DNA of 64,000 nt from assembly GCF_000695095.2 (NCBI RefSeq), contig NZ_CP011454.1, positions 1,674,001-1,738,000 on the forward strand, given 5' to 3'. Both the position numbers and the translations under genes were made by a program. The notes beneath the pieces were generated by a model, which was not told where the DNA came from, ran no database searches, and was given only the letters and a program-made list of their open reading frames with translations. Position 1 is the first letter of the stretch, and every line of letters starts with the position of its first letter. Positions 5,794 to 61,268 of the stretch are shown in pieces. This DNA is from Gemmatimonas phototrophica (lineage in GTDB: Bacteria; Gemmatimonadota; Gemmatimonadetes; Gemmatimonadales; Gemmatimonadaceae).

Positions 5794-6945
5794 TTAAGGC
5801 GACCACGGCCGGCGCGAACCTGCGCCCGCCCGAAAATCGCGCCACGTATCTCCCAGTCCGAGGGTGAAGGTGATCGTCAGCAACGCGACGAGCACCCACA
5901 CCGGCCCGAGCACCGGGACCAGCACCGCCAGCGCGAGCAGCACCCACACCGCTGCCCGATCCGGGATGTACCACACCAGGACTCCGGCGCCCCGAAGAGC
6001 ATACAGTGTCCCGAAAAACCCCACGAGATTGAGGCCGGCCGTGCGCCACTCCACCAGCGTGGGCAGCAACAGCACGGTCACACCGACGATCAATCCCCAC
6101 ACCCATTGGTCGTTGAAGCGCAGATCCCTCAGCGCCGCCAGAGGCGGCCCCAGACGGGCCCGCGTGAGGCGGTGATACGCCGCCCACCCCAGCGCCAGCG
6201 CGAGGAGACTCTCCAGCGCCAACAGGGTCGGGGCTAACACCACCAGCGGTGCCACCCGCGCGCCCCCCACCGACGCTGAGGCCGGCCGTGGTTCCGCGAG
6301 TGCAATCAACAACCCTTCCAACCGTTCCGTACGGGCCACAGCTTCCGGGAACCGCTGCGCGAACCCGCGCCACGATTCGGAGGCCGTCCGCCCGCGCCAG
6401 ACGTCGAGCGAGGCGCCGAGCCGCTGCTGATACTCTTGAGAGAGCATCTGGGCGGCGGCATCGAAAGCCCCGGCACCACTGGCCGAGCGGGCGGACAGCC
6501 CGAGCAGCGTTACCACTCCGGCCAAGGCCACCGCTGCCAGGGCCCGGGTGAGAAACGGTTTGGCGGCCGTGAGCAGGCAGACCAGCCCAAAGGCCGCGCC
6601 TAACGTCACCGCCCAGCCGCGGAGGAACGCACCATACCCGGAGAGCGGGAGCGGCACCTTCCACACCACGTACCCTGCTGCGAGCCCCCACACGAGCCCC
6701 AGCACCAAACGGCCTCCCGCCCACCACCCCACCAAGGCGCAGGATGCGATAGCCACGAGGACCACCAGCGCAAACTGCTCCACGGGAAGCAACAGCCGGA
6801 CCATACCAGCCAACAGCGCGAGGGCAGGCGGCCAAGCCGGTGCTGCGGTCACGGCGACCATCAGCAACATGCCAAGCACAAACCACCGCCATCCGCGCTC
6901 TTGCGGAGCGGTCGCGGCGAGACCCGGCGCGACCGCTCCGTTCAT
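5794..6945 (-). CDS. DUF2232 (YybS-like) multi-spanning membrane protein
   Basis: This 383-residue protein has about eight hydrophobic membrane segments (for example WFVLGMLLMVAVTAAPAW, FALVVLVAIASCALVGWWAG and VWVLLALAVLVPVLGPV) separated by short loops. There is a longer soluble stretch near residues 165-215 and a charged C-terminal tail. A polytopic membrane protein between rpsR and rplI is the known position of the DUF2232/YybS family, so the assignment rests on topology and context. The molecular role of the family is not established. It starts 2 bp after the rpsR stop, which implies translational coupling, and is followed by rplI after 36 bp. Confidence 0.8.
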   Translation of the reverse strand: MNGAVAPGLAATAPQERGWRWFVLGMLLMVAVTAAPAWPPALALLAGMVRLLLPVEQFALVVLVAIASCALVGWWAGGRLVLGLVWGLAAGYVVWKVPLPLSGYGAFLRGWAVTLGAAFGLVCLLTAAKPFLTRALAAVALAGVVTLLGLSARSASGAGAFDAAAQMLSQEYQQRLGASLDVWRGRTASESWRGFAQRFPEAVARTERLEGLLIALAEPRPASASVGGARVAPLVVLAPTLLALESLLALALGWAAYHRLTRARLGPPLAALRDLRFNDQWVWGLIVGVTVLLLPTLVEWRTAGLNLVGFFGTLYALRGAGVLVWYIPDRAAVWVLLALAVLVPVLGPVWVLVALLTITFTLGLGDTWRDFRAGAGSRRPWSP

Positions 6946-6947
6946 AC

Positions 6948-7169
6948 TTACGCCGTCTGGCCCTTCACATACGGAAGGAGCGCCAGGAAACGCGCCTTCT
7001 TGACGGCCTTCGACAGCTGACGCTGATGACGCGCGTCCACGCCGCTCAAACGGCTCGGCAGGATCTTGCCGTAGTCCGTGATGAAACGGGCAAGGAGACG
7101 GTCGTCCTTGTAATCGACGTAACGGATGCCCGCTTCAGTGATCGGGCAGGGCTTCTTCTGGCGGCGCAT
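6948..7169 (-). CDS. rpsR: 30S ribosomal protein S18
   Basis: This 73-residue protein starts [14 protein letters not shown] and contains [19 protein letters not shown] and the signature [20 protein letters not shown], which are diagnostic of S18. It binds 16S rRNA together with S6 in the platform of the 30S subunit. It follows rpsF by 3 bp and precedes the DUF2232 gene by 2 bp, giving a tightly packed operon in the usual bacterial order. The single N-terminal Cys in a KKPCPI context is common in S18 and can help bind metal in some bacteria, but one Cys alone does not show that here. Confidence 0.98.
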
Positions 7170-7172
7170 GGG

Positions 7173-7565
7173 TTAATCCTCGTCGTCGTCGTCATCATCG
7201 CCCGCGCGACGGCGCGAAGCGAGCTCTTCATCGGAGAGCTTGGGCGCACCCAGCTCATGCTCATACAGCGTGACCAGGTAACGGATCACCCCTTCGTCGA
7301 GCTTGAGCGCACGCTCGAACTCGGGCAGGGTAGCCGGTGCCGTGGTGAAGTTGCTGATGACGTAGTAGCCGTTCTCGTGACGGCCGATCTTGTAGGCAAG
7401 CTGACGACGGCCCCAGTGCTCAATCGTCGCCGGTTCGGCGAGGTGGAGCAGGCCCTGCAGCTTCTCGAGCTTTTCAGCAATGGCCGTATCTTCGAGCGCA
7501 CTGTCGAAGATGTACACGGCTTCGTACTGCCGCGTTGGATTACGGCGGATCTTGAGCTTTGCCAC
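7173..7565 (-). CDS. rpsF: 30S ribosomal protein S6
   Basis: This 130-residue protein starts with a GTG at 7565, read VAKLKIRRNPTRQYEAVYIF. An AGGGAGG ribosome binding site sits about 8 bases upstream, which decides the start over a longer frame reaching 7634. The core shows YEAVYIFDSAL, IEHWGRRQLAYKI and GYYVISNFTTAP, all standard S6 elements; S6 pairs with S18 on the 30S platform. The C-terminus is an acidic tail, DDDDDDED. E. coli S6 receives C-terminal glutamates after translation; here a run of acidic residues is genetically encoded. It is the first gene of the cluster, with about 158 bp of upstream region shared with the divergent SRAP gene. Confidence 0.97.
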   Translation of the reverse strand: MAKLKIRRNPTRQYEAVYIFDSALEDTAIAEKLEKLQGLLHLAEPATIEHWGRRQLAYKIGRHENGYYVISNFTTAPATLPEFERALKLDEGVIRYLVTLYEHELGAPKLSDEELASRRRAGDDDDDDED

Positions 7566-7723
7566 TCGGCAATCCTCCCTGTGGTCTGTTTGCCACCCGC
7601 AGTGCCGATCCGCGGGCGGAGGGTCGAAGAACACGGTCGTGTTCCTGATGAGCCTTAAAGGCTAGTCAGACCGGGGGGCCGGGTAAAGCCCCGAACGGCT
7701 TTCCGCCGGATAGATTACCAGCC

Positions 7724-8425
7724 ATGTGCGGTCGCTACGGCTTCGGAAATCCCGCCCGTCTGGGCACCCTCCCCCTCGGGGTCACCTTTCCCGGGCTCCC
7801 CGCCCGGTTCAACGTGGCCCCCTCGCAGGCGGTCCCACTGGTCCTGCATGACCGGGGCGAGCGCCAGGGGCTCATGGCCCGCTGGGGACTCGTCCCGTTC
7901 TGGGCCGACGACCCGGCGATAGGCAACCGGCTCGCCAATGCCCGCGGGGAGACGGTGGCCACCAAACCCAGTTTTCGGGGCGCCTTCAAGAGCCGCCGCG
8001 GCATCATGCCGGCCGATCTTTTTTATGAGTGGCAGGTGCTCGCCGGCCAGAAGGTCAAGCAGCCTTGGTGCATCCGCATGGCCGACGATCGCCCCTTTGC
8101 CATGGCCGCCCTGTGGGAGCGGTGGGTTCCCAAGACCCAGCCAGATGCCGATCCGCTGCTGACCTGCTGCCTCATTACCACGGACCCGAACAGCACCATG
8201 GTGCCGCTGCATGACCGGATGCCGGTCATTCTGCACGAGGAGGACTACGCGGAATGGCTCGACCCGGCGACGCCCCCGGCTCTGGCCCAGCGATTGATCC
8301 GGCCCTTTGATGGCCCCATGCGGGCCTACCCGGTGAGCACCGTGGTGAATACACCGCGGAACGAGGGCGAGACGTGTGCCGCGCCGCTTACTTCGTTCCC
8401 TTCGACCCGCGCAGATACAGATTGA
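7724..8425 (+). CDS. SRAP-domain (YedK/HMCES-type) abasic-site-processing protein
   Basis: This 233-residue protein begins MCGRYGF. In this family, Met removal exposes the catalytic Cys2, which forms a covalent thiazolidine crosslink with abasic sites in single-stranded DNA. Other family residues are present: Asn in LANARGET, Glu in LFYEWQ and His in VPLHDRMPVIL. The FNVAPSQ and RWGLVPFWA segments are also typical. It probably protects replication forks at abasic sites in the cytoplasm. It is transcribed away from rpsF, and its last 38 bp overlap the 3' end of the opposite DUF3108 gene. No Shine-Dalgarno sequence is seen; a TAGATT box ends 7 bases before the ATG, which would fit a leaderless transcript. 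Confidence 0.95.
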   Translation: MCGRYGFGNPARLGTLPLGVTFPGLPARFNVAPSQAVPLVLHDRGERQGLMARWGLVPFWADDPAIGNRLANARGETVATKPSFRGAFKSRRGIMPADLFYEWQVLAGQKVKQPWCIRMADDRPFAMAALWERWVPKTQPDADPLLTCCLITTDPNSTMVPLHDRMPVILHEEDYAEWLDPATPPALAQRLIRPFDGPMRAYPVSTVVNTPRNEGETCAAPLTSFPSTRADTD

Positions 8426-9179
8426 GCGACCCGAAGCTCAGCTTCGACTTCATCTGCACCATCATGCGACGGTCGTCGTCGGTAATCCACACCTCCGCCT
8501 TGCCGTTCTGGCTGAAGATACCTTTGGTCTGGAAGGTGGGCTGCAACACCACCGTCTTGAAGGTGCCGGCTGGCACCGTGACCGTTTCACGGCGCAGCAC
8601 CCGGATGCGGACCGGGTTGCCCTGCGCCTTGAAGTAGCGGGCAAATTCGTACGTCTTGCCGACTTCCAGCGGCAGCGTGCGCACGAAGTAGAGGAACGAC
8701 CCCTCATCGAGCGGGTTGCTCACCGTGGGCTCCTCCTCACGGTCACCTTCCTTCAGCATCCCGCGCTCAGGGAAAATTTCGTAGCGGCGCTTGCGCTCGT
8801 AATTCCCCTCGTCCACGTCCTGGTGGTAGCGCAGGGAGTTGAACGTGGCCACGTCGAACCACGACTCGTACACGTCGTTCACGCGATAGAGCGGAATGCC
8901 GCCCTTGATCGTGAACACGGTGTGCCACACCGGACGGCCACGCACTTCGGTGATTTCCTTCACCTCCATGCTGCCATTGCCCACCTTGAGCGACCCGAAT
9001 TTCACTTCGTAATCGAGGCGCTCTCCCACCGTAAAAGGCACGGCCAGCGCATTGGCGGGGAGCGGGCGCGACGCCATGTCCTGGACGGACGCCAGCGTCT
9101 GCCCACCAGCCGGCGGGGCGGTGAACGGGACGGCCGCCAGCCCGAGAAGGACCGCGAAAACGTGCATCGAGCGCTTCAT
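8388..9179 (-). CDS. Secreted DUF3108-domain protein
   Basis: This is a 263-residue exported protein. The ATG at 9179 gives a clear signal peptide (MKRSMHVFAVLLGLAAVPF...GGQT); a longer upstream frame would only add Arg-rich sequence. The body matches DUF3108: PFTVGERLDYEVKFGSLKVG near residues 45-65, then VFTIKGGIPLYRVNDVYESW, a KTYEFARYFK segment, and VWITDDDRRMMVQMKSKL near the end. The family is a beta-rich periplasmic or outer-membrane-associated domain of unknown function. It overlaps the SRAP gene tail-to-tail by 38 bp and lies 47 bp downstream of ychF on the same strand. Confidence 0.85.
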   Translation of the reverse strand: MKRSMHVFAVLLGLAAVPFTAPPAGGQTLASVQDMASRPLPANALAVPFTVGERLDYEVKFGSLKVGNGSMEVKEITEVRGRPVWHTVFTIKGGIPLYRVNDVYESWFDVATFNSLRYHQDVDEGNYERKRRYEIFPERGMLKEGDREEEPTVSNPLDEGSFLYFVRTLPLEVGKTYEFARYFKAQGNPVRIRVLRRETVTVPAGTFKTVVLQPTFQTKGIFSQNGKAEVWITDDDRRMMVQMKSKLSFGSLNLYLRGSKGTK

Positions 9180-9226: not shown

Positions 9227-10321
9227 CTAGACGTTGAACCGGAACAACAGCACGTCGCCGTCCTGCACCACGTACTCTTTGCCTTCCGATCGCACCGCCC
9301 CCTTTTCCTTGGCGCCCTTCCAACCGCCCAGGGAGACGAAATCAGCAAACGACGCCGTCTCGGCCCGAATGAACCCCTTCTCGAAGTCCGTGTGAATGAC
9401 CGCCGCGGCCTTGGGGGCCGTGTCGCCTTTGTGAATGGTCCACGCGCGTACTTCCTGCTCGCCGGCCGTGAAGTACGTGTCGAGCCCCAGGAGCGAGTAG
9501 CCGGCCCGGATGAGTCGGTCGAGCCCCGCCGACTCAATGCCCAGCGAGGCGAGAAACTCGGCCCGCTCGTCGGCCGGCAGTTCCGACAGCTCCGACTCGA
9601 TCTTGGCCGAGAAGGGCACGACTTCGGCGTGTTCCCCCGCCACGGCCTCGCGCAGCGCCTTGAGGTACGTCCCCTCTTCGCCCGACAGCTCCTCGTCGGT
9701 CACGTTGGCGGCGTAGAGCACCGGCTTGGCGGTGAGCAATTGCATACCGCCCAGCTTTTCCAGGAAATCGGCCGAGAGGCCGGCGCGCCAGAGCGGCTTC
9801 CCTTCGGAGAGAGCGGCGTTGGCGGCTTCGAGCGCCGGCAATTCGGCCAACGCCTCCTTGTCGGCCGCCTTGGCGGCGCGCTTCACCTTGTCGAGCCGCT
9901 TTTCCACCGTGGCCAGATCGGAAAGCGCGAGCTCCAGCTCAATGATTTCCTTGTCGCGTGCCGGGTCGGGCTGCCCCATCACGTGCGTCACGTCGTCGTC
10001 GGCAAAGCAGCGGATGACGTGCACAATGGCGTCGGTCTCGCGGATGTTCTGCAGGAACTTGTTCCCCAGCCCTTCACCCTGCGACGCGCCCTTGACCAGC
10101 CCGGCAATGTCCACGAACTGCACCACCGCCGGCACCGTGCGCTTGGGGAGCACGATTTCCGCCAGCTTGTCGAGCCGGGGATCGGGAACCTCCACCATGC
10201 CCACATTGGGCTCAACGGTGCAGAAGGGATAATTCGCCGCTTCCGCCTTTGCCGCCGTGAGCGCGTTGAAGAGCGTGGATTTGCCAACGTTGGGGAGACC
10301 GACGATACCGAGGCGGAGCAT
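9227..10321 (-). CDS. ychF: Redox-regulated ATPase/GTPase YchF (Obg family)
   Basis: This 364-residue protein has the YchF layout. The N-terminal G domain starts MLRLGIVGLPNVGKSTLFNA (Walker A GLPNVGKST), with a PNVGMVEVPDPRL segment, switch II VDIAGLVKGASQGEGLG, and the altered G4 motif NVTDEE in place of NKxD, which explains ATP preference in the family. A helical insert follows G3 and the C-terminal TGS-type domain contains VRAWTIHKGDTAPKAA, IHTDFEKGFIRAE and DGDVLLFRFNV. YchF binds the ribosome and modulates stress responses. The start is placed at 10321 because this gives the universal MLRLGIVG N-terminus and normal length (about 363). Confidence 0.97.
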   Translation of the reverse strand: MLRLGIVGLPNVGKSTLFNALTAAKAEAANYPFCTVEPNVGMVEVPDPRLDKLAEIVLPKRTVPAVVQFVDIAGLVKGASQGEGLGNKFLQNIRETDAIVHVIRCFADDDVTHVMGQPDPARDKEIIELELALSDLATVEKRLDKVKRAAKAADKEALAELPALEAANAALSEGKPLWRAGLSADFLEKLGGMQLLTAKPVLYAANVTDEELSGEEGTYLKALREAVAGEHAEVVPFSAKIESELSELPADERAEFLASLGIESAGLDRLIRAGYSLLGLDTYFTAGEQEVRAWTIHKGDTAPKAAAVIHTDFEKGFIRAETASFADFVSLGGWKGAKEKGAVRSEGKEYVVQDGDVLLFRFNV

Positions 10322-10445
10322 GGGGCTGGGTTGGGGTTTGGATACAGCTTTGAAAGGTAATAGGGGAGGGGAGGGGGGCGGAAAAATGATCGGGTGGCCG
10401 CGAAAATGATGAGATTCCATTGCCTGCCATAGCCTATCCTCTGGG

Positions 10446-10820
10446 ATGCAGGACTTTCGGAAACTCGTGGTATGGCAGCGGGCGCAGGCATTGGCCGCTC
10501 GGGTACATCGGCTCACGACCTCACCCAAAGGGGGCGCACATGGCGCGTGGCGCAATCAGCTCCAACGTTCGGTTCAATCGATTGCCGCAAACGTTGCCGA
10601 AGGCGCAGTAAGGTCAACGCCGAGGCAATTTGGTCATTTTCTCACGATCGCTTTGGGGTCAACGTCGGAGACCGAGAGCCACTTGGACTTCGCGTGGCGG
10701 ATCGGAGCCCTCTCCTCCGACGACGTTATGCCTCTGCTTGACGAGGCGGCTCAAATCCGTCGCATGCTTACGGCACTACGCAAACGGGTTCTGGAGACCC
10801 AAAGGAAAACTGAACACTGA
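10446..10820 (+). CDS. Four-helix-bundle protein (S23/IVS-encoded family)
   Basis: This 124-residue protein begins MQDFRKLVVWQRAQALAARV, the signature of the small four-helix-bundle family first seen in intervening sequences of 23S rRNA (TIGR02436-like). Further family marks are QLQRSVQSIAANVAEGA, FGHFLTIALGSTSETESHL and a final helix with ALRKRVLE. The family forms oligomeric helical barrels; diversity-generating-retroelement Avd proteins share the fold. Its cellular role is unknown outside those systems. No reverse transcriptase or rRNA lies nearby here. The stop codon at 10818-10820 is inside the start of a palindromic heptad repeat array, so gene and array are physically joined. The upstream 124 bp are shared with the divergent ychF. 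Confidence 0.9.
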   Translation: MQDFRKLVVWQRAQALAARVHRLTTSPKGGAHGAWRNQLQRSVQSIAANVAEGAVRSTPRQFGHFLTIALGSTSETESHLDFAWRIGALSSDDVMPLLDEAAQIRRMLTALRKRVLETQRKTEH

Positions 10821-10947
10821 CAACTTGAACTGACCACTGAGAACTCCTGCTGAAAACTGAAAACTCCCCGCGGGTGGCGAGGAGTCTTCACTTCTGAGTT
10901 CGAGTTTTCAGTGGTCAGTTGGAGTTTTGAGTCTCCAGTTCAACTCC
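10808..10947. repeat. Palindromic heptad array A (ACTGANN words)
   Basis: Two inverted arms surround a GC-rich centre near 10867-10883. The left arm reads ACTGAAC, ACTGACC, ACTGAGA, CTGAAAACTGAAAACTC. The right arm reads the reverse complement type: GAGTTTTCAGTGGTCAGTT and GAGTTTTGAGTCTCCAGTT. Words share ACTGA and differ in the two bases that follow. The array joins the end of the four-helix-bundle gene to the stop codon of the convergent M28 peptidase gene. It could fold into a long imperfect hairpin. Confidence 0.85.
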
Positions 10948-12687
10948 CTACTGCTTGCACTGCCCCCGCGGATTCAGCTTCGGCTGATCGACCAGCGGCC
11001 TCGTTGCGCGATTGCCCAGCTCCGTCGCGATATCCGCCACCAGCCGCGACACGCGCTGCATATGCGGGTAATCGATATACTGCGGCTCGTCGGTGAGCTG
11101 GTGATACGCCGAGTGTCCACCGGTGGTGAAGAACGTGACCGGCACGCCCCACTTGGCGTACTCGTAGTGATCGCTGCGGCAGTAGATATTCATGGGGTGC
11201 CCGTTGGCATCCATGGCGTAGTCGAACGAGAAGTTGTGCTTCTTGCCCGTATTCACTTTCTCCACCAGGTCGCCCAGCTCGGTGGACAAACGGCGCGAAC
11301 CCACCAGCTGCAGATAATCGGGGCCGCCGCGCAGCTCCTTACCGTCGGCGCTCATGCCGGTCTGGTCGGTCGCGCTGCCGCGGCCCACCATGTCCATGTT
11401 GAGCTGCGCCACAATGCTGTCGCGCGGCACCGTGGGGTACTCGGTGAAGTGCGCTGAACCCCACAGCCCTTTCTCTTCGCCGGCGTGCCACACGAAGAGC
11501 GTGCTGCGCTTGGGCTTCACCTTCTGCGTGGCCAGATACTCGGCGATCTCCAGCACCGCCATGGAGCCGGAGCCGTCGTCATCGGCGCCGTTGAAAATGG
11601 AGTCGCTACGCGCCGGACGATTCTTGCGCAGCTCGGCCAACTCGGCATTGATCTGCACGAACTGTTCGGCGTTGCCCATCTTGTCGTCGTTCTCAGCGCC
11701 GCCGGGACGCACGATCTTGTTGAAGACGTAGACGGAATCGTGATCGATGGCGCGGCGTGCCGTGCCCACATGATCGCTGTGGGCGCCGATGGCCACGTAC
11801 TGCGTGGCGAGCTTGGGATCGCTTCCGGGAATGAGCCCGATCACGTTGCGCGCAGGGAATGGCGGGGACTGCATATCTACGAGCGCCTTCACGTTCAACT
11901 TGGCGCCGACCGCTCCCGGCGCCAGCATGGACATGCCGACGTTGAAGATTTTCGTCGTCACACTGTCCGTGACGAAGAGCCGGGAATCCGAAGGCATGTT
12001 CGGGTCAACCACGGAAAGCCCGCCTTGCAGCACGTAGTTCAGCACGCCGCGCGCTTGGGCAGGGAGCAGGAAGAGCACCGCGGCGGCGCCTTCCGGCGCC
12101 TCGATGCTCCCCACAACGGCGCGCTGCAGCGCGGGATTGCTCGTGATGCTGTACGCGACCACGCGCCCCTGTGCCTGTTCCGGGGTCACCGGGGGCATCC
12201 CCTCCGCGGGAAGCGGGCCGGCAAAGAAAACTTCCGCATCGTTTGTCGTGATGTTCTGGGCGCCGCTGAATGCCCATTCCTGGCCAAGCGTCGCCGTGGC
12301 GCCCCCCGCCACAAACGACGACATGCGATCGACCCTACGCGTCTTGAGCGGCAACGTCTGGAAGTACGTGCCGCTATCGCCCATGGGCTTGATGCCGAGC
12401 CGTTTGAGCTCCCCAGCAATGTACGTGGTGGCCTTGTAATGCCCTTCGGTGCCCACATCGCGGCCACCGAGCGAGTCGTCGGCAAAGATGTACAGCCGCG
12501 TCATCAGATCCTGCGACGTGATCGCCCCGGTGGTGGGGCGCGGCGTGTGCTTGAGCGGCAGCGGGGAACTGTTCACGCCCGCGTCTACGGGCGTCTTGCG
12601 GGGAGCATCCTGCGCCTGTCCAACCAGCGGCGCGGAGATCGTGGCAACAGCGGCGGCCAGCAGCCACCGCGGCGAAATCATGGTCAT
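10948..12687 (-). CDS. Secreted M28 family zinc aminopeptidase
   Basis: This 579-residue protein carries a signal peptide (MTMISPRWLLAAAVATIS...GQAQ). A protease-associated-type insert occupies roughly residues 120-280. The M28 catalytic core then shows all expected ligands for two zinc ions: His in AIGAHSDHVG (about 301), Asp in GADDDGSGSM (about 367), the Glu pair in WHAGEEKGLWG (about 402), Asp in LNMDMVGR (about 430) and His in TGGHSAYHQ (about 523). It should trim N-terminal residues from peptides in the periplasm or outside the cell. Its ATG overlaps the stop codon of the upstream lipoprotein gene (ATGA), so the two are translationally coupled. Its stop codon abuts repeat array A. Confidence 0.93.
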   Translation of the reverse strand: MTMISPRWLLAAAVATISAPLVGQAQDAPRKTPVDAGVNSSPLPLKHTPRPTTGAITSQDLMTRLYIFADDSLGGRDVGTEGHYKATTYIAGELKRLGIKPMGDSGTYFQTLPLKTRRVDRMSSFVAGGATATLGQEWAFSGAQNITTNDAEVFFAGPLPAEGMPPVTPEQAQGRVVAYSITSNPALQRAVVGSIEAPEGAAAVLFLLPAQARGVLNYVLQGGLSVVDPNMPSDSRLFVTDSVTTKIFNVGMSMLAPGAVGAKLNVKALVDMQSPPFPARNVIGLIPGSDPKLATQYVAIGAHSDHVGTARRAIDHDSVYVFNKIVRPGGAENDDKMGNAEQFVQINAELAELRKNRPARSDSIFNGADDDGSGSMAVLEIAEYLATQKVKPKRSTLFVWHAGEEKGLWGSAHFTEYPTVPRDSIVAQLNMDMVGRGSATDQTGMSADGKELRGGPDYLQLVGSRRLSTELGDLVEKVNTGKKHNFSFDYAMDANGHPMNIYCRSDHYEYAKWGVPVTFFTTGGHSAYHQLTDEPQYIDYPHMQRVSRLVADIATELGNRATRPLVDQPKLNPRGQCKQ

Positions 12688-50163: not shown

Positions 50164-51564
50164 TCAGACCGCGTCGGACAGACTGGTAAAATTGAAGTCT
50201 CGCACCTTGAGGGGCGGCATGGCCACACCGGGCCCTCCTTCGCCGCCCGCAGTGCGCACGGCTTTACCGATGCCTTCGAGATTGTTCAACATGAAGAGCG
50301 GTGAATCATTGAATCGGAAGTTCTTGATGGATCGCGCGATCTTGCCGTTTTCAATGAGGAACGTTCCGTCACGGGTGAGGCCCGTGTACATGAGCGTGCG
50401 CTGATCCAGCGGGCGCAGGTACCACAACCGCGTTACCAGCACGCCCCGAGACGTTCCGGCGATGAGTGATTCCAGCGATTCCGCCCCATCGGCCATGCGG
50501 AGTCCGGCGGTGCTACCGGTTGGTGTCTTACCCTGCTTATTGGCCCAGAACCGATTGTAGGCCAGCTGATTGAGCACGCCGTTCTGAATCCAGGTTTGCC
50601 GGGAAAGCGGCAATCCTTCGTTGTCAAACGGGGAAGCGAGGATGAGCCCGTCGGATGGATCGGAGTACAGCGTGACCCGATCATCAACAATTTTCTCCCC
50701 AACCTTGGTGCCGCCGGTCTTGGAGAAGGCCGATCGTCCTTCGTCGGCCGCACGGGCCTGAAAGGCATTGGCCATGAGCCCCACCAGGTTGGCCGTGGCC
50801 TCTGGCTCAAAAATCACTGTGTACCGCCCGGGCTCAAGACCAACGGGGGTGCGAGACCGGCGCGCTTTTTCAATGGCGCGATCGGCTACCGACTTGAAGT
50901 CGATGCGGCTCCAATCGGTGTCTTCGGCGCCTACCCAGCCTGATCCCGTGCCGTCATTGGTGCGCGCGGTAAGTGTGTAGTTGGCCGTTGTGCCGCGGTG
51001 GTAGGCAAAGAGCCCGGCATTGGTGCCAATCGCGGTCGCGGCAGCGTTGCAGATAATGAACCCGGCCACCGTGAGCTCGTTGCCCGCCCGTGCCGGTGCC
51101 AACGCCGTGAGTGCGGCGCGCGCGCGATCGTCTGCCGACAGTTCGGCGGTACGATCACTCCACGACTCAATAGCCCGGTACTGCTGCGCCGGCAACTCGC
51201 CCAGGTACTCCGGGTCTTCGGGCGCCAGCCTGGCCAGCGCTTCTGATTGCTGCACCGCACGACGCAACCCTTCATCGCTGCGGTCGTTGGTCACCACACT
51301 GGCTTTGCGTTTGCCAAAGACACTCTGCACGCGAATGGTGGTGTTGGTGGTCACCCCACTCGTGGACATCTGGTTGTCGGCAAAACGCAGATTGGTTTCG
51401 CGGCCGCTTTGCACCGACACGCGCACGGCGTCGGCTTTGCTGAGCTTTACCGTGCGCTCCACCAGCGCCTGGGCCTCCTCGCGTGACAGTACGCCCGTGG
51501 GAGCTGCGGCGCGGCTGATGTGGAACAGCGACTTCGGCGCGTCGTTATCGGAAAAAGTACTCAC
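50164..51564 (-). CDS. pmbA: TldD/PmbA family protein, PmbA (TldE)-like subunit
   Basis: The GTG at 51564 overlaps the tldD stop codon (GTGA) and gives 466 residues. It is preferred over a longer frame to 52038 that lies inside tldD. Family marks are SREEAQALVERTVKL, LRFADNQMSTSGVTTNTTI, PGRYTVIFEPEATANLVGLM, PFDNEGLPLSRQTWIQNGVL and RTLMYTGLTRDGTFLIENGK with IARSIKNFRFNDSP. It lacks the HExxxH zinc motif, as expected for the PmbA/TldE partner. The TldD/E heterodimer is a metalloprotease that processes unfolded peptides such as microcin precursors and CcdA. The two genes are translationally coupled. Confidence 0.93.
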   Translation of the reverse strand: MSTFSDNDAPKSLFHISRAAAPTGVLSREEAQALVERTVKLSKADAVRVSVQSGRETNLRFADNQMSTSGVTTNTTIRVQSVFGKRKASVVTNDRSDEGLRRAVQQSEALARLAPEDPEYLGELPAQQYRAIESWSDRTAELSADDRARAALTALAPARAGNELTVAGFIICNAAATAIGTNAGLFAYHRGTTANYTLTARTNDGTGSGWVGAEDTDWSRIDFKSVADRAIEKARRSRTPVGLEPGRYTVIFEPEATANLVGLMANAFQARAADEGRSAFSKTGGTKVGEKIVDDRVTLYSDPSDGLILASPFDNEGLPLSRQTWIQNGVLNQLAYNRFWANKQGKTPTGSTAGLRMADGAESLESLIAGTSRGVLVTRLWYLRPLDQRTLMYTGLTRDGTFLIENGKIARSIKNFRFNDSPLFMLNNLEGIGKAVRTAGGEGGPGVAMPPLKVRDFNFTSLSDAV

Positions 51565-53177
51565 AGCGCGCGCCCCGTGTTGATGATGTTCGCGTTCTTG
51601 AAGCGGGCCGGCGGACAGCCGTGACTCACCGCGTTGCTCTGACCGGGCTGCCCCTTGCCATCGTTGAAGGTGCCGCCGTGCATGTAGCTCTTCTGGCCGC
51701 CGAGCATGTCGAGGGTGTTCCAGAAATCCGGCGTGCGCATCTGGTAGGCGGCGTCCTTCACCTGACCCACGATTTTCCCCTTGCGGATTTCGTAGCACAA
51801 CTGCGCGCCGAACTGCGCGTTGTAGCGCTGCTGATCGATGGAGTACGACGCGCGCCCGATCATCGCGATCCCCTTGTCGGTCGCGGCGATGAGATCGTCC
51901 CAGCCGATATCCTTGGGGCCGGGCTGCAGCGACACGTTGGGCATGCGCAGGAACGCCACGTCCGCCCAGCTCTGCGCGTACGAGCAGCCGTGCGAGCGTA
52001 CGGGCTTGCCGGTCTTCGCGTAGTACTCGCGCAACCACGGCGCCTGTTCGCGGTTGGTCTGGTAGTCCACGAAGATGCCGTCTTTGATGATGTGGAACTC
52101 GTCTGGCACCACGCCGTCGTCGTCGTAGCCGATGGTGGCGAGTGCGCCGGGTTCGCTGCGATTGCCGATGACCTGCATGATCGGCGAGCCGAACTTGAGT
52201 GAGCCGAGCACCTTCTCCGGTGGCGCTACGAACGACGTGCCGGCGTAATTGGCTTCATAGCCCATCGCGCGGTCGAGCTCGGTCGCATGCGCCACGGATT
52301 CGTGAATGGTGAGGAACAGCTGCGACGGGTGCAGAATGAGATCGTAGCGCCCCGGCTCCACCGCCTTGGCGGTGAGCTTTTCGGCCGCTTCACCGGCCCA
52401 CACCTTGGCGTTGTTCACGATGTCGGCTTCGAGCACGTATTCCCAACCGCGACCGGCAGGCTGGACGACTTCGGGGCCACGCACGGCGCTACCCGTACGA
52501 TCGGGCGACACCGCGGTGCAGGACATCGTCACCCAACTGCGCACGTAGTCTTGCGTGGTGACTGTGCCGTCGGTGTTGGCGTAGTTGCGCTCTTCCTTCA
52601 CGAACGACAGGCCGCTGTTCACAAAGCGCACCGTGGGCACGGTGAGCGCGGCGGCGTTGGCACGCAGCAGCAGGTCGGCCTTTTCTTCCACCGCAATGGT
52701 GAACGGATCGACGGTGTACGCGGAGCGCCAGGTCTTGTCCACCTGTGCCGGGGCAGGGGCGAGTTCCACGCGGCGATCGCGGGCAATGCGATTGGCTTTG
52801 GCAATGGCGACCGCTTCCTGGGCGGTACTGCCCACGCCAGCCTTGCTGAGCTCCTGCGTGGCGGCAAAGCCCCAGCAGCCGTCTACCAGCACGCGCACGC
52901 CGCACCCCATGGTGTCGGTATCCACCACGTCGGTGACCTGCTTTTCGCGGGCCTGCACGCTGTTGTTGCGATTGCGCGAAATGCGCACATCGGCCCACGT
53001 GGCCCCGGCCCGTTTGGCGGCGTCGAGCGCCTCCATCATGAGCTCACGGGTAGCGGCATCGGTGTACAGCGCCGGCAGGGCGGGCGCCCCGGGCATGGCC
53101 TCGAGGAGGCGGGGACCAACGGCGAGCGCACCCAGCGCCGCGCCACCGGTCGCGAGAAAATCGCGGCGGGAAGTCAT
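51561..53177 (-). CDS. tldD: TldD metalloprotease subunit, exported by a Tat-type signal
   Basis: This 538-residue protein starts MTSRRDFLATGGAALGALAV, a twin-arginine signal (SRRDFLA), at the ATG at 53177; a TTG at 53183 is less likely. The zinc motif HESVAHATELDRAMGYE (HExxxH, about residue 295) is the TldD signature. WADVRISRNRNNSVQAREKQ and YDLILHPSQLFLTIHESVAH flank it, and VGSPIMQVIG-like and SHGCSYAQSW segments follow. Classical TldD is cytoplasmic, so the Tat signal suggests a periplasmic version. It is followed by the pmbA-like gene with a 4-bp overlap. The partner has no obvious signal and might be exported by hitchhiking. Confidence 0.92.
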   Translation of the reverse strand: MTSRRDFLATGGAALGALAVGPRLLEAMPGAPALPALYTDAATRELMMEALDAAKRAGATWADVRISRNRNNSVQAREKQVTDVVDTDTMGCGVRVLVDGCWGFAATQELSKAGVGSTAQEAVAIAKANRIARDRRVELAPAPAQVDKTWRSAYTVDPFTIAVEEKADLLLRANAAALTVPTVRFVNSGLSFVKEERNYANTDGTVTTQDYVRSWVTMSCTAVSPDRTGSAVRGPEVVQPAGRGWEYVLEADIVNNAKVWAGEAAEKLTAKAVEPGRYDLILHPSQLFLTIHESVAHATELDRAMGYEANYAGTSFVAPPEKVLGSLKFGSPIMQVIGNRSEPGALATIGYDDDGVVPDEFHIIKDGIFVDYQTNREQAPWLREYYAKTGKPVRSHGCSYAQSWADVAFLRMPNVSLQPGPKDIGWDDLIAATDKGIAMIGRASYSIDQQRYNAQFGAQLCYEIRKGKIVGQVKDAAYQMRTPDFWNTLDMLGGQKSYMHGGTFNDGKGQPGQSNAVSHGCPPARFKNANIINTGRAL

Positions 53178-53250
53178 GCCCAATACTATGGCCCAAACGT
53201 CCGGTTCGTTGGGGGATCAGGGTAACTCTGCCGCAGGGCCTTAACTCTAG

Positions 53251-54404: not shown

Positions 54405-54995
54405 TCAGTCGAGCGCTCGTCGCATGCGTTCACAGGGCACCACGACACCATCGGGGAGCAACACCGGAACGGCCTCAACGGTCTCAAACCCCAGAGTGCG
54501 GTACAAGGGCACACCGGGCAGCGTGCCCATCAGTTCGAGGGCCAGAAACCCTGCCGCACGCGCTTCGGCAGCACAATGCTCGTACAACTGCCGAGCCAGC
54601 CCGCGCCGGGCGAAGTGCGGGTGCACAAAAAACGCCCGGATCCGCGCTGGTACAGTAGCCGGATCAACGGGCGCATCGGTACCGCCGTGATGGTGATGGC
54701 CGTGGTGGTGCTGCGCGGGCGTTGCGGCGCTTTCAGACGCCTTATGCTGGTCGCCACCAAAAAGCGTTTGCCGTCCACTCCAGCCGCCACACGCCGCGAG
54801 GGTACCGTCCACTTCAATCAGGAAATACGTCCCATCAGTTACCAGTTGCGAGTCGACGCCAAACATATGCTGCATGGCGCTCTCAATCTGCGCGGGGGTG
54901 TAGTAGCCCACCGCGAGTTGCCGCACGGAGTCGTTAATGAGCGCGTTGAGTGGCGCAATATCGGCCGCCGTGGCGCGGCGCAGCAGCACGGCCAT
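54405..54995 (-). CDS. GNAT-family N-acetyltransferase with His-rich insertion
   Basis: The ATG at 54995 gives a 196-residue acetyltransferase. The GNAT core shows VLLRRATAADIAPLNALIND, GTYFLIEVDGTLAACGGWSG, and the acetyl-CoA loop FFVHPHFARRGLARQLYEHC (about 128-147), then LELMGTLPGVPLYRTLGFE. Between the two halves is a His-rich insertion, HHHGHHHHGG (about 96-105), that could bind metal or just be low-complexity sequence. The acceptor substrate is unknown. It starts 4 bp after the stop of the threonine dehydratase gene and is followed, after 107 bp, by the dienelactone hydrolase gene. Confidence 0.88.
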   Translation of the reverse strand: MAVLLRRATAADIAPLNALINDSVRQLAVGYYTPAQIESAMQHMFGVDSQLVTDGTYFLIEVDGTLAACGGWSGRQTLFGGDQHKASESAATPAQHHHGHHHHGGTDAPVDPATVPARIRAFFVHPHFARRGLARQLYEHCAAEARAAGFLALELMGTLPGVPLYRTLGFETVEAVPVLLPDGVVVPCERMRRALD

Positions 54996-54999
54996 GGCG

Positions 55000-55989
55000 T
55001 CAGGCCGCCCCAATGGCCCGCGCCAGAATGGCCGGGTCAATATTGCCCCCCGTGGTGACCACGAGCGTGGTGCGGTCGCGGGTGTCCAGTTTGCTGCTCA
55101 GCAGCGCTGCCAGCGCCGCCGCACCGCCGGGCTCAACCACCAGCTTGAGTTCGCGCACCGCAAAGGCAATAGCGCTCAGGACCTCGTCGTCGGTAACCCG
55201 CAACCCGGCCCCTACACGCGGCTGGTTGATGGAAAAGGTGAATTCGCCGGGAATGTCGGTCACAATGGCGTCGCATATGGAGCGCTTGCCCGGTTCGTTG
55301 GCCACACGATGCCCCAACGCCAATGACCGCGCCATGTCGTCAAACTCGGCCGGTTCACACGGGTGCACGACGGTAGACGGCGACACCGCTTCAGCGGCCA
55401 GCGCACACCCCGCCGTAAGCCCACCACCGCCGCAGCACACCAGGAAGGTGTCTGGGGTGTACCCCATGGCCTGCGCCTGCTCCAGCGCTTCCAGCGCCAG
55501 TGTCCCCTGTCCGGCTACCACATCGGCGTCTTCGAATGGCGGTACCACCGTGGAGCCACGCTCGGCGGCAATGCGGCCGCCAATCGCCACCCGATCTTCG
55601 GTATAACGATCATAGAGGACGACCTCCGCCCCAAATGCCCTCGTGCGCTCGATCTTGAGCGGCGGGGCATCCTTGGGCATCACAATCACCGAGCGCATCC
55701 CCAGCAGGGTGGCACTATAGGCCACGGCCTGCGCGTGATTGCCCGACGAATAGGCCACCACTCCGCGCTCCCGTTCCTCGGCGCTCAGCTGCAGCAAGCG
55801 GTTCAGCGCACCGCGCAACTTGAAGGACCCGGTGTGCTGCAACACCTCGGCCTTCAGCAAGACCGTCCCGCCGGCGACGGCGTCGAGGGCCGGAGAGCGG
55901 AGCAGCGGTGTGACGGCAGCGTGCGGCGCAATGCGCGCGCGGGCCGAACGGATGTCGGCGATGGATGGGGCGATGAGTGTGGAGGCCAT
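55000..55989 (-). CDS. Threonine/serine dehydratase (PLP fold type II)
   Basis: This 329-residue enzyme has the catabolic-type layout without a C-terminal ACT domain. The PLP lysine is in VLQHTGSFKLRGALNRLL (about residue 58), the substrate loop is VAYSSGNHAQAVAYSA, and the phosphate-binding glycine loop is LVCCGGGGLTAGCALA (about 185). FAVRELKLVVEPGGAAALAA and VVTTGGNIDP complete the family pattern. It deaminates threonine or serine to 2-oxobutyrate or pyruvate. It could serve isoleucine synthesis or degradation. It is the first gene of a three-gene minus-strand series. Its start is 138 bp from the divergent multicopper oxidase gene. Confidence 0.92.
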   Translation of the reverse strand: MASTLIAPSIADIRSARARIAPHAAVTPLLRSPALDAVAGGTVLLKAEVLQHTGSFKLRGALNRLLQLSAEERERGVVAYSSGNHAQAVAYSATLLGMRSVIVMPKDAPPLKIERTRAFGAEVVLYDRYTEDRVAIGGRIAAERGSTVVPPFEDADVVAGQGTLALEALEQAQAMGYTPDTFLVCCGGGGLTAGCALAAEAVSPSTVVHPCEPAEFDDMARSLALGHRVANEPGKRSICDAIVTDIPGEFTFSINQPRVGAGLRVTDDEVLSAIAFAVRELKLVVEPGGAAALAALLSSKLDTRDRTTLVVTTGGNIDPAILARAIGAA

Positions 55990-56126
55990 ACGGAAGTATC
56001 AGCAACTGTCGGGCGGCGGGCCAGCAGGCCGGGCAGGTGTTCTCGAATTCACGGGTGTGCGGGTGATCAGTGCAGTAGTCTTTTGTGCACGCCACCACGG
56101 TCGGATTCCTGTCTCCGGAGTACCTG

Positions 56127-57998
56127 ATGTTCTCGCTGCCACTTGGATTGTTGTGGGGCCAGTTGTTAGTGAGTAGCGCTGTGCCCACCCCACCCCGTGC
56201 GGCGCCGGTGGCCGCCCCCAACGACAATCGCACCACCGTCGTGGGCACCGTGCCGGCGGTGGCGCTGACGCTGGTGGAAGCCCTCTGGAAGCCGGAGGGG
56301 GGGCAGGGCCCCGCGCTGAACGTGTGGGCCATGACGTCGTCCGACAGTTTGCCCGTCGTCCCGTCTCCACTCATCCGGATGGCACGGGGGCGTACGCTGC
56401 AGCTGCGTCTCACCAACACGCTGCGGGACACCATTGATGTGCACGGACTCCGGGCCACACGTGAGGCCAACGATGTGGTGGTGCTGTTGCCGGGTGAGTC
56501 GCGCACCATTTCGGTCACGTATGGGCGCTCTGGCCAGTTTCTGTATTGGGGCGGTCGCCATGGGCAGTCCTTTGACGATCGCGGATGGGAAGAAGGACAG
56601 TTGACGGGCGCGATTGTGGTCGACGATCCCCAGCAACCGCGCGGCGGCGATAGGGTGTTTGTCGTGACCGAATCGTTCAAGTTTGAAGAAGTAGCCGGAC
56701 GTCGAGAGGTCGTTTCCCAGCTGGCGGTGAATGGCCTCAGCTGGCCGCACACCGAACCGCTGCGCTACGCCATGGGTGATTCGGTGCACTGGCGGTGGCT
56801 GAACGGTGCCACCATTCCGCATCCCATGCACTTGCACGGGTTCTACTACCGGGTCAGTGCCATGACAACGCTCGCCGCCGAAACGCGGACGCCTCCGGCG
56901 CGCCAGCCACTGGTGGTCACGCAATACCTGCCGCCGGGGAACACCATGCAGATGGCGTTCCTTCCCACGGAGCCAGGCAATTGGGTGTTCCATTGCCATT
57001 TCGCGCAACATGTGAATGGCGTCTCGACGGCCGATACCGTGTATCGCGATGCGGAGCGTCGGATGGCATACACCCTCGAGGGACGCCACATGTCGGGGTT
57101 GGTCATGGGGCTCACGGTGACTTCGCCGGAGCCGACCCCGGAGCGCGCAGCCACACGTCACCTCCGGCTGTTCATGGACAAGAAGTCCACACCGTTCACG
57201 CACGGCGGCGAGGGGGTGGCCTTTGCCCTCGCTGACAGCACCGGTGCCGTCGCGCAGAATGGATTCAGGGTACCGGCGCCGGTGCTGTTGCTCAAGCGTG
57301 GTGAGCGCGTGGCAATCACGTTGGTGAACCGGCTACCGCAGGCCACTTCGGTGCACTGGCATGGGTTGGAGATCGAGAGCTATCCCGATGGCGTGCCACA
57401 TGTGAGTGGGCGCGATGGAAAACTGCTGCACCCAATTCCGGCCGGCGATTCACTGACGGTGAATTTCGCACCGCCACGCAGCGGGACGTTCATGTATCAC
57501 TCGCACTTCAGCGAAGCCTCGCAGATGAATGGCGGGATGTACGGCGCCATTCTCGTGTTGGACGACCCGGCTCGGTATAGCCCGGCCACCGATCATCTGT
57601 TCGTCATCGGTGGCGGCGGCATTCCTGCGGTCCCACTGGGGACCGCGAGCCCGTGGGGATTGGTCAACGGACGGACCTCCCCGCCGCCGGTCTCCATGAA
57701 GGTGGGCGAGCGGCATCGGTTCCGGTTTGCCAGTATCCATCCCGACTGGGAAGTCCGTGTGACGCTGGGGACCCTTACGCAGGCCATGGCATGGACGCCG
57801 GTAGCCAAGGATGGCGCCGAGCTGCCAGCGGTATTGCGTACGCCGGTTCCTGCCACCTGGATGGGCGGCCCCGGCGAAACGGCCGACTTCGAGGTGACAC
57901 CGAGCAGGCCGGGAGACTATCTGCTGCAGGTGCGTACGGAGAGCTCGGGGTGGTCCATCGTGATCCCGGTTACGGTGAAAGCGGTCGGACCGCGCTGA
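56127..57998 (+). CDS. Multicopper oxidase with permuted order of copper motifs
   Basis: The ATG at 56127 (CGGAG upstream) gives 623 residues with a signal-like N-terminus; a GTG at 56085 is an alternative. All laccase copper motifs are present but reordered. HPMHLHG (about 232) and FHCHFAQH (about 288), normally C-terminal, come first. SVHWHG (about 408) and YHSHF (about 457), normally N-terminal, come later. A degenerate cupredoxin domain (LRLTNTLRDTIDVHGLR, about 94-109) precedes them. The axial type-1 position after HCHxxxH is occupied by Val, so no Met ligand. It should oxidise phenols or metals with O2 in the periplasm. It is divergent from the dehydratase gene and 47 bp before the DUF5916 gene. 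Confidence 0.88.
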   Translation: MFSLPLGLLWGQLLVSSAVPTPPRAAPVAAPNDNRTTVVGTVPAVALTLVEALWKPEGGQGPALNVWAMTSSDSLPVVPSPLIRMARGRTLQLRLTNTLRDTIDVHGLRATREANDVVVLLPGESRTISVTYGRSGQFLYWGGRHGQSFDDRGWEEGQLTGAIVVDDPQQPRGGDRVFVVTESFKFEEVAGRREVVSQLAVNGLSWPHTEPLRYAMGDSVHWRWLNGATIPHPMHLHGFYYRVSAMTTLAAETRTPPARQPLVVTQYLPPGNTMQMAFLPTEPGNWVFHCHFAQHVNGVSTADTVYRDAERRMAYTLEGRHMSGLVMGLTVTSPEPTPERAATRHLRLFMDKKSTPFTHGGEGVAFALADSTGAVAQNGFRVPAPVLLLKRGERVAITLVNRLPQATSVHWHGLEIESYPDGVPHVSGRDGKLLHPIPAGDSLTVNFAPPRSGTFMYHSHFSEASQMNGGMYGAILVLDDPARYSPATDHLFVIGGGGIPAVPLGTASPWGLVNGRTSPPPVSMKVGERHRFRFASIHPDWEVRVTLGTLTQAMAWTPVAKDGAELPAVLRTPVPATWMGGPGETADFEVTPSRPGDYLLQVRTESSGWSIVIPVTVKAVGPR

Positions 57999-58045: not shown

Positions 58046-60283
58046 ATGCCGAGCCTCTTCCTATCCCTGAAACGTCCCCGCTGGCAGCCACTGCTGTTGG
58101 CGGGGATCTGCTGTTTGGCCATCGTGCTGGCGCGCCCCTCCCAGATTGCCGCACAGCGTGCGGTGACGGTGAATGGGGTGGATCACCGGGTCTATCGCAC
58201 GTCGCGCGAAATCACGCTCGACGGGCGCTTCACGGAAGCGGATTGGGCGCAGGCGGACTCCATCACGGACTTCCGCCAGCGAGACCCGGTCGAGGGCGCA
58301 CCGAGCACTGAACGCACGGTGGTGCGATTGCTGGCGACGCCGGTTGGACTGGCCATTGGCTGGTGGTGCTACGACTCGGATGCGGCCAATATTTTGCGGA
58401 CGCAGGTGCGTCGCGATGCGGAATTGCGCAGCGACGACTACGTGTCCATGGGCATTGATGGGCTGCACGACAAACGCAGTGCCTTCTATTTTCGCACCAA
58501 TTCCAACGGCGCCATGTGGGACGGCGAGCATGTGGATGCCGAAACGGGAAACGAAAGCTGGGATGGCGTGTGGGACGTGCGTACCTCCATCACCGGGGAG
58601 GGCTACTTCATCGAGATGCTCATTCCATGGGCCACCTTGCGCTACGCCGAAGGCGACAGCGTCATGGGGATGAACTTCCGTCGGTTCATGCCACGGAAGA
58701 ATGAAGAAACGCTTTGGCGCGCCTGGCGGCGAACCGAAGGGTTTCGGTTTCTCGAGCAGGAAGGGCTCATCGGGAATCTCGACGGCCTCCCTCGCCGGCC
58801 GCGTGTGGAAGCCCGTCCGTACATCTCCGGTGAATCACGACTCACGGAGCGACGGTATTTCGCGGTCTCGGGCGATTCCGTCTTGGCGCCGTCGGCCAGC
58901 GATGGCAATATCGGGCTCGATCTCAAGGTGCCGATCACCAACACCATTACGGCCGATCTCACCTTCAATCCTGACTTTGCTCAGGCGGAAGTCGATCGGC
59001 AGATCGTGAATCTCACCCGCTTTCCGCTGTTCTTTCCCGAGCAGCGTCCGTTTTTCACGGAAGGCTCGGCCATCTTTGATTTTGGTCGGCCGCGCGAAGC
59101 GCAGATGTTCTATTCCCGGCGCATTGGCCTGGGGGCGAGTGGTACGCCGGTCACCATTCCGGTGGGCGTGCGCATGCAGGGACGGGCTGGCAGTCGGCAA
59201 GTGGGGTTTTTGGCTGCACGCACGTCGGGTGACGAAAAAAGCTCAAACGCCGTGCTGCGCGTCAAACAGGACATTTTGGGGCGGGGCTACGTCGGTGCCA
59301 TGGGCACCTTTGCCGGTGAAACCGGTCGTCCGGGCAGCGCGGCGGGAGGCGTGGACTTCGTGCTGCCGTACATCGTGCAGGGCGGACAAAATCTCATTCT
59401 GCTCGGCAACGCGGCCTTTAGTCGCGATTCTGCCGGAGGTGAGACAGGCGCCCACTACCGCTTCATGGTGGATTACCCCAACGACAACGCCGATATTGTC
59501 GTGCGCTTCGATCATATCGATGCGGCCTACGATCCCGCCTTGGGGTTTGTGCAGCAGCGGGGCATCAATCGTATTGCCGGCAATACGCAGTTCACACCGC
59601 GCCCCAAGAAGCGCAGCCGCTATATCCGGCGCTATGAATTCAACGTGGCCAGCTACGATCTGGTGTGGGGCGTCAACGGCGGGCTGGACAACGCCTCATT
59701 CTCTGTGAAACCGTTTGGCCTGCAGTTCCAGAACGGCGATCGATTGGAAACCACGGTGCGTCGGCGTTTCGATGCGCCCGACCAGACGTTTTCCCTGTTC
59801 ACCAACGCCAATGTCGCTCCTGGGCAGTACTGGTGGACGCGCGGGGAGCTGCAGTACAATGGCGCCGAGGCGCGTCCGGTGAAGGTGACGCTGAACGTCA
59901 GCGCCGGCGATTTCTACAACGGGCAGTCGCGCGATGTGTCGAGCAGTGTTCGACTGCGTCGGGCGCCGCACATGCTGTTGACGTTGGAGGCGCAGATTTC
60001 GGATGTCACGCTCCCCGTGGCACGCTTCACGGCGAAGACCGTGCGTGTGCGTGGGGACTACGCATTCAATCCGCGCCTCAATGCCACACTGTTTGCGCAA
60101 TGGGAGAACCAGTCGCAGCGCGCCAGCACCAACGCGCGCGTGCGCTGGACGGTGAAACCCGGCAGCGATCTGTATGTGGTGTGGAACAGTGCCTGGCCCA
60201 CTGGGCTCGAGCGTGCCATTCCGTGGGCGCGTCCGGCACGCGGTGGTCTCGTGGCGAAGTATGTGTACTTCTTCCGGGCATAA
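58046..60283 (+). CDS. DUF5916 protein with N-terminal CBM9-like domain
   Basis: This 745-residue exported protein has a signal peptide (WQPLLLAGICCLAIVLARPS, ending IAAQ). The first domain (about 45-240) is of the carbohydrate-binding family 9 type: REITLDGRFTEADWAQADSI, SDDYVSMGIDGLHDKRSAFY, WDGVWDVRTSITGEGYFIEM. The DUF5916 region begins near 290 with FNPDFAQAEVDRQIVNLTRF and PLFFPEQRPFFTEGSAIFD, which is the family signature, and continues as alternating beta strands likely to form an outer-membrane barrel. The C-terminus, GGLVAKYVYFFRA, is slightly atypical for a barrel. Function is unknown. It follows the multicopper oxidase by 47 bp and may be cotranscribed. Confidence 0.88.
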   Translation: MPSLFLSLKRPRWQPLLLAGICCLAIVLARPSQIAAQRAVTVNGVDHRVYRTSREITLDGRFTEADWAQADSITDFRQRDPVEGAPSTERTVVRLLATPVGLAIGWWCYDSDAANILRTQVRRDAELRSDDYVSMGIDGLHDKRSAFYFRTNSNGAMWDGEHVDAETGNESWDGVWDVRTSITGEGYFIEMLIPWATLRYAEGDSVMGMNFRRFMPRKNEETLWRAWRRTEGFRFLEQEGLIGNLDGLPRRPRVEARPYISGESRLTERRYFAVSGDSVLAPSASDGNIGLDLKVPITNTITADLTFNPDFAQAEVDRQIVNLTRFPLFFPEQRPFFTEGSAIFDFGRPREAQMFYSRRIGLGASGTPVTIPVGVRMQGRAGSRQVGFLAARTSGDEKSSNAVLRVKQDILGRGYVGAMGTFAGETGRPGSAAGGVDFVLPYIVQGGQNLILLGNAAFSRDSAGGETGAHYRFMVDYPNDNADIVVRFDHIDAAYDPALGFVQQRGINRIAGNTQFTPRPKKRSRYIRRYEFNVASYDLVWGVNGGLDNASFSVKPFGLQFQNGDRLETTVRRRFDAPDQTFSLFTNANVAPGQYWWTRGELQYNGAEARPVKVTLNVSAGDFYNGQSRDVSSSVRLRRAPHMLLTLEAQISDVTLPVARFTAKTVRVRGDYAFNPRLNATLFAQWENQSQRASTNARVRWTVKPGSDLYVVWNSAWPTGLERAIPWARPARGGLVAKYVYFFRA

Positions 60284-60347: not shown

Positions 60348-61268
60348 ATGCCCCCAATGCCACGCCAGCTGATCACCGGACGGCTGATAGCGGCGGTGCT
60401 GCTGTCAGCCGTTTGCCTGTACCCGTCCGTCATGGTGCAGGCGCAGTCGCCGCCGGCATCACCCGGTACATTGTTCATCGTGGGGGGCGGCACGCAGCCC
60501 ACGTCGCTGGTCCAGGACTTTGTGCAGCGGGCCGGTGGCCCGGGCAAAGCGCGCATTGCCGTCTTTGCCATGGCCAGCACGGTTGGCGAACGGAGTGGAG
60601 AGGCCAAGGCCAACGATCTCCGGGCCATGGGGGTGGACGCTCAGGCCATCTGGATCACACGCGCCCAGGCCGACGAGGACTCGGTCGTCCACCTGCTTGA
60701 TCGGGTCACCGGGGTGTGGTTTGGCGGTGGCGATCAGAACCTGCTCATCGCCGCGCTACGCGGCAGCAAAGTGGAGTGGGCCATTCGCGCGCGCTTCAAC
60801 GCGGGTGCGGTCGTTGGCGGTACGTCGGCCGGAGCGGCGGTCATCTCGTCGCCCATGATTACCGGCGAAGAACTGCTGCGGCGCGACACCACCGAAACAT
60901 GGACACGCATCCAGCGCGGGACCGTTCAGGTGGACAGCGGCTTTTCCTATCTCACCAACGCCATCGTGGACCAGCACTTTTTGCGTCGCAAGCGGCACAA
61001 CCGGCTGCTGAGCCTCGTGTTGGCCGACGCGCCGCATCTTGGCGTGGGTATCGACGAGGGCACCGCACTCATTGTTGAGCCATCTGGGCTCTGGCGCATT
61101 GCCGGCGCCAGCGCCGCCCTCATCTTCGACGCCCGCGAGGCCACGCGCACCTCCGCGTCGTCGCCTGTGCTTGGTGCCGCCTCGGTACGCATGCATCTGC
61201 TGCCGCATGGGGCCACCTTTGACCCGCGCACGGGTACCGCGACGCTCCCGGCCGCGATCAAGCCGTAG
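60348..61268 (+). CDS. Secreted cyanophycinase (peptidase S51 family)
   Basis: This 306-residue protein has a signal peptide (LIAAVLLSAVCLYPSVMVQA, cleaved near AQ). The S51 core has GTLFIVGGGTQPTSLVQDFV, WFGGGDQNLLIAALRG (oxyanion region), the nucleophile in VVGGTSAGAAVISSPM (Ser160), IVDQHFLRRKRHNRLLS (His210) and GVGIDEGTALIVE. Cyanophycinases cleave cyanophycin to beta-Asp-Arg dipeptides. A signal peptide implies an extracellular enzyme acting on polymer made by other cells, as in known secreted members. No cyanophycin synthetase is in the window. The 3' end overlaps ispE by 11 bp. Confidence 0.92.
   Translation: MPPMPRQLITGRLIAAVLLSAVCLYPSVMVQAQSPPASPGTLFIVGGGTQPTSLVQDFVQRAGGPGKARIAVFAMASTVGERSGEAKANDLRAMGVDAQAIWITRAQADEDSVVHLLDRVTGVWFGGGDQNLLIAALRGSKVEWAIRARFNAGAVVGGTSAGAAVISSPMITGEELLRRDTTETWTRIQRGTVQVDSGFSYLTNAIVDQHFLRRKRHNRLLSLVLADAPHLGVGIDEGTALIVEPSGLWRIAGASAALIFDAREATRTSASSPVLGAASVRMHLLPHGATFDPRTGTATLPAAIKP

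Follow-up and report, generated by a model that had tools for sequence, protein, structure and literature searches.

Positions 56127-57998 of the window, which is the whole 64,000-nucleotide stretch of Gemmatimonas phototrophica DNA that was analysed, hold one open reading frame (ORF) on the forward strand encoding a multicopper oxidase (MCO). The frame begins with ATG and a GGAG sequence is present upstream at 56117-56120. Stops break the frame read on the opposite strand. The deduced sequence of 623 residues revealed copper motifs in the order HPMHLHG (aa 232-238), HCHFAQH (aa 289-295), HWHG (aa 410-413) and YHSH (aa 457-460). The Pfam models Cu-oxidase_3 and Cu-oxidase_2 each matched the protein twice, with the best stretches at aa 381-480 and 197-297, respectively. 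Cupredoxin domains combined with a full T1/trinuclear ligand set (10 His and 1 Cys) place the protein in the MCO superfamily. The character of the N-terminus suggests that the oxidase is probably exported. The features are collected in Table 1.

The upstream neighbour of the oxidase is a divergent gene encoding a PLP enzyme. Downstream, a gene encoding a DUF5916 protein (58046-60283, +) starts 47 bases past the oxidase stop codon, and co-transcription of the two is possible. Directly 3' of the DUF5916 gene is a gene encoding a Peptidase S51 (cyanophycinase-like) protein (60348-61268, +). Further genes in the window include those for a GNAT acetyltransferase with the internal His-rich sequence QHHHGHHHHGG, possibly metal-binding (54408-55040, -), and a TldD/PmbA-type metallopeptidase (51564-53183, -). 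The latter is probably paired with a second ORF of which the C-terminal part is TldD/PmbA-like (50164-52038, -).

Table 1. Features of the oxidase gene and its product, in window coordinates.
Feature	Position	Strand	Basis
CDS, four-domain multicopper oxidase, 623 aa	56127..57998	+	ORF; GGAG 6 nt before ATG
Hydrophobic N-terminal stretch without visible twin-Arg; probable Sec-type export signal	56127..56195	+	sequence read; N-termini of relatives alike
D1, degenerate T2/T3-type cupredoxin domain	56259..56636	+	Cu-oxidase_3 stretch; D1 to D3 hhalign probability 98.1; ligand columns unconserved in 63 members
DVHG where HWHG is expected, D1	56436-56447	+	
YWGG where YHSH is expected, D1	56544-56555	+	
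D2, T1-bearing cupredoxin domain with 4 of the 8 trinuclear His	56637..57131	+	Cu-oxidase_2; ligands 63/63
HPMHLHG: H232 T1, H235 T2, H237 T3	56820..56840	+	sequence, family alignment
HCHFAQH: H289 T3, C290 T1, H291 T3, H295 T1	56991..57011	+	sequence, family alignment
M322-x-G-L325 element after insertion; Leu325 at candidate T1 axial position by motif alignment	57090..57101	+	M 63/63, G 63/63, L 62/63
D3, T2/T3-type cupredoxin domain contributing the remaining 4 of the 8 trinuclear His	57144..57572	+	Cu-oxidase_3 best stretch, aa 381-480
HWHG: H410 T2, H412 T3	57354..57365	+	sequence, family alignment
YHSH: H458 and H460 T3	57495..57506	+	sequence, family alignment
D4, degenerate T1-type cupredoxin domain (aa ~483-619) without copper ligands	57573..57983	+	D2 to D4 hhalign probability 96.5; second Cu-oxidase_2 stretch; no conserved His/Cys set

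The motif order had been singled out as unusual in the first-pass annotation of this DNA and is real, since it is kept across a large family of more than 100 members, 63 of which were aligned. Ten of the 11 ligand columns are identical in all 63 members and the last in 62, the exception being a gap in one row. The near-invariance of these columns indicates that the order is not the result of chance. Neither the D1 nor the D4 ligand set is retained in any of the aligned members, and H106, the sole His remaining in D1, is His in 21 of them.

In order of best agreement, hhalign scored the domain pairs D1 and D3 at 81.7, D2 and D4 at 61.0, D2 and D3 at 50.5, D1 and D2 at 38.8, and D3 and D4 at 27.9. 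When compared as halves, D1-D2 aligned with D3-D4 over 201 columns with a probability of 99.3. The best PDB match of the D1-D2 profile was the two-domain laccase 2zwn, aligned over both domains, and the D3-D4 profile was collinear with D1-D2 of three-domain laccases and with the two-domain oxidase 3g5w. The D2-D3 profile was collinear, without a break, with ceruloplasmin 595-901. The profiles indicate that the protein is a tandem repeat, (D1D2)(D3D4), with each half like a two-domain MCO. Loss of ligands, as read from the alignment, is complementary: D1 is devoid of a T2/T3 half-site and D4 of a T1/T3 half-site, so that the single complete set is that of D2/D3. The degenerate cupredoxin domain proposed in front of the motifs is thus confirmed, but the earlier domain count was one short, D4 having been overlooked. 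An arrangement of two complete oxidase units is excluded since the family alignment contains a single ligand set. The ligands, their conservation and the precedent of MnxG (PMC3600357) are best read as a trinuclear site between the neighbouring domains 2 and 3, as had been suggested, and we consider it very probable that a single site comprising T1 and the trinuclear cluster (TNC) is built from D2 and D3.

The T1 axial ligand had been assigned to Val, with a high redox potential as the consequence. The residues at nine and ten positions past C290 are Val299 and Ser300, both in variable columns, and the column of the former reads N, E, A, V, D or H in the 63-member alignment. The assignment is ruled out as a miscount across an insertion combined with a variable column, and the high potential fails as stated since it depended on that Val. 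The insertion, of variable length among family members, follows HCHxxxH and precedes the M322-x-G-L325 element. The G-L of this element matches by motif the G-M/L/F of CueO and laccases, the last residue of which we take to be the axial position; thus, Leu325 is the best axial candidate with Met322 as the alternative. A weaker version of the claim, in which Leu in place of Met would fit a medium to high potential, is possible.

Structures were predicted with AlphaFold for the window protein (mean pLDDT 75.4, pTM 0.76) and for a relative, L033 (mean pLDDT 76.7, pTM 0.78), both of which were all-beta across four domains. In the window protein, two loops beside the copper site (aa 291-323 and 416-433) had a pLDDT below 50. 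Since these loops are poorly predicted, the copper site is deduced from the ligands and not seen in the models. Each half matched two-domain oxidases and nitrite reductases with Z of about 22-25, a far better fit than that of the four-domain whole to ceruloplasmin. Six-domain proteins ranked first among the Foldseek matches listed for both models, although the whole-chain superpositions on them were loose, at 6.5-10.5 A. For L033, MnxG (9bxa) had the highest TMq among the matches listed (0.64, 6.5 A), followed by ceruloplasmins (0.60-0.63, 6.7-7.9 A); the TMq of three-domain laccases was about 0.33-0.35 at 16-18 A. For the window protein the values were 8.6-10.5 A for six-domain proteins versus about 19-21 A for laccases. 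The four-domain fold therefore resembles those of MnxG and ceruloplasmin.

It was reported in 2013 that the trinuclear His residues are in domains 2 and 3 of algal ferroxidases and of all bacterial six-domain oxidases examined, MnxG included, and that domain 2 contains the only mononuclear site of the bacterial proteins (PMC3600357). In an MnxG gene, Cu-binding region D is likewise described as lying ahead of A/B (PMC3039467). Since these reports give the same order for MnxG-like oxidases, the motif order is not new. The first-pass annotation had named a known characterised family of like order as grounds for refuting it; such a family exists in the MnxG-like six-domain oxidases and, with respect to the TNC, also in algal Fox (PMC3600357). 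That annotation was largely right in its observation and half right in its interpretation. The oxidase is an MCO variant with four domains, and its motif order has precedents among six-domain oxidases of manganese and iron. Like Bacillus MnxG (PDB 9bxa), it has the T1 ligands in D2 and the TNC ligands split between D2 and D3, but MnxG-like MCOs have six domains and 1217 aa or more compared with four domains and about 620 aa here, the placement beside them being by description and fold. Chlamydomonas Fox1 and Fox2 also draw their trinuclear His from domains 2 and 3 (PMC3600357), but are eukaryotic with six domains and further mononuclear sites. Ceruloplasmin and hephaestin are likewise composed of multiple two-domain repeats; however, ceruloplasmin has three T1 sites and a TNC between D1 and D6, whereas the ligands here are in D2 and D3. 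Three-domain laccases and CueO/CopA share all four motifs and homology at the level of domains, but have the A/B motifs in the N-terminal D1 and the C/D motifs in the C-terminal D3, and the whole chains fit at only 16-21 A.

The location of T1 and TNC as in MnxG-like proteins (PMC3600357), together with the rank of MnxG for the L033 model, could also be explained by truncation of a six-domain MnxG/Fox-type oxidase with loss of the last two domains, in which case the copper chemistry would be alike. This origin is considered less likely than fusion of two two-domain units, given that no six-domain relative was found among the family members read, in which the surplus length of long ORFs is without further MCO motifs.

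The first-pass annotation had favoured a circular permutation, which here would require a three-domain laccase rearranged to D3-D1-D2 with an extra cupredoxin domain in front. D2, D3 and D4 do match laccase D3, D1 and D2 one to one, and the collinearity of D3-D4 with laccase D1-D2 is as expected for a permuted protein. However, the closest likeness of D1 to D3 and of D2 to D4 is that predicted by a tandem repeat, D1 and D2 jointly match a two-domain MCO best, and the whole four-domain matches are six-domain proteins and not laccases. The permuted laccase was not borne out and is considered quite improbable, since D1D2 is repeated in tandem as D3D4 and the ligand losses of the two halves complement each other.

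The TNC of two-domain MCOs is formed between subunits from D1 and D2 (PMC13151041), and the models are of low confidence at the active-site loops, both consistent with a cluster formed in trans within an oligomer, one chain supplying D2 and a second chain D3. The short linker between D2 and D3 (about aa 332-343) argues against such an assembly, as does the intrachain site of MnxG and of ceruloplasmin, which match the whole chain most closely; little likelihood is attached to it. A copper-free or non-catalytic cupredoxin scaffold comparable to coagulation factor V or SufI, to which the high rank of factors V and VIII in the Foldseek list might point, is extremely improbable since a scaffold would not keep all 11 ligands essentially invariant across 63 divergent members.

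Whole-genome searches of 191 good genomes, a sample from across Gemmatimonadota, found at least one copy of the family in 68. Named relatives belong to Gemmatimonadota, with the exception of two Balneolaceae MAGs and one weak Pseudonocardiales match. The phylum to which one of the Balneolaceae MAGs belongs was sampled with 247 genomes, of which four gave a match, one of them partial. A search of Actinomycetota that lacked a within-phylum positive control gave no match. Among the genomes searched, the family is widespread in Gemmatimonadota and rare elsewhere. The genome of G. phototrophica contains three copies, and one additional Cu-oxidase_3 protein with its A/B match ahead of its C/D match. 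Two members, of which one is a paralogue in the same genome, have an additional domain of about 165-240 aa C-terminal to D4 (L085:5442-8129 and L016:1003-3471, both -). Adjacent copies were observed as a divergent pair in one genome (L081:2552-4558, -, and 6333-8468, +) and as a tandem pair in another (G187:C36:6627-8354 and 9550-11286, -).

No conserved operon was found around family members, and the context gives no clue to the substrate. The DUF5916 gene is absent from the leading clusters of conserved neighbours of the family loci. Genes encoding Ser/Thr protein kinases were located within 6.5 kb of family members at 20 loci (L036-L103), in all four orientations, and a gene encoding an ECF-type sigma factor within the same distance at a few of the 20. 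These recurrences may only reflect how common such genes are in the phylum.

Type B two-domain MCOs with T1 in domain 2, represented by 2zwn and 3g5w, suggest how the four-domain protein could have originated. One subunit resembles each half of the present protein, and the inter-subunit TNC interface corresponds to D2/D3, the difference being that the type B enzymes have two domains per chain whereas here a single chain contains both copies, which have degenerated in different domains. In the proposed scheme, the ancestor would have been a trimer in which domain 2 of each subunit forms a TNC with domain 1 of the adjacent subunit, and two copies of the ancestral gene would have fused in tandem. 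D2 and D3 of the fused chain would rebuild the junction between subunits, and the half-sites left outside it, in D1 and D4, would have decayed. A fused pair would be expected to have lost the T2/T3 half in D1, kept the T1 and T3 half in D2, kept the T2/T3 half in D3 and lost the T1 half in D4, which is the arrangement observed. Electrons from putative donors such as phenols, Cu(I), Fe(II) or Mn(II) would enter at the T1 copper in D2 (H232, C290 and H295), from which Cys290 and the flanking His residues would pass them to a predicted intramolecular TNC composed of H235, H237, H289 and H291 from D2 and H410, H412, H458 and H460 from D3, where O2 would be reduced to water. Taken as a whole, the description of an exported, O2-reducing four-domain MCO derived by fusion of two two-domain MCO copies is moderately favoured.

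MCOs are described as having two, three or six domains in a 2026 report (PMC13151041), and a literature search limited to openly accessible papers found no class of four-domain MCO. The compact four-domain form therefore appears to be undescribed, and the size class new, within the openly accessible literature. It is tentatively proposed that the family represents a distinct four-domain class preserving a step from trimeric two-domain to six-domain enzymes, in which an inter-subunit site would have become intrachain and the outer half-sites would have decayed. Models of how MCOs evolved assume that two-domain units fused and that copper sites were then lost; the four-domain family is a concrete and abundant test case for them, with a visible repeat and one surviving site at the junction. 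Since searches for laccases that expect A/B before C/D may misread its members, these bacterial oxidases also form an untapped group.
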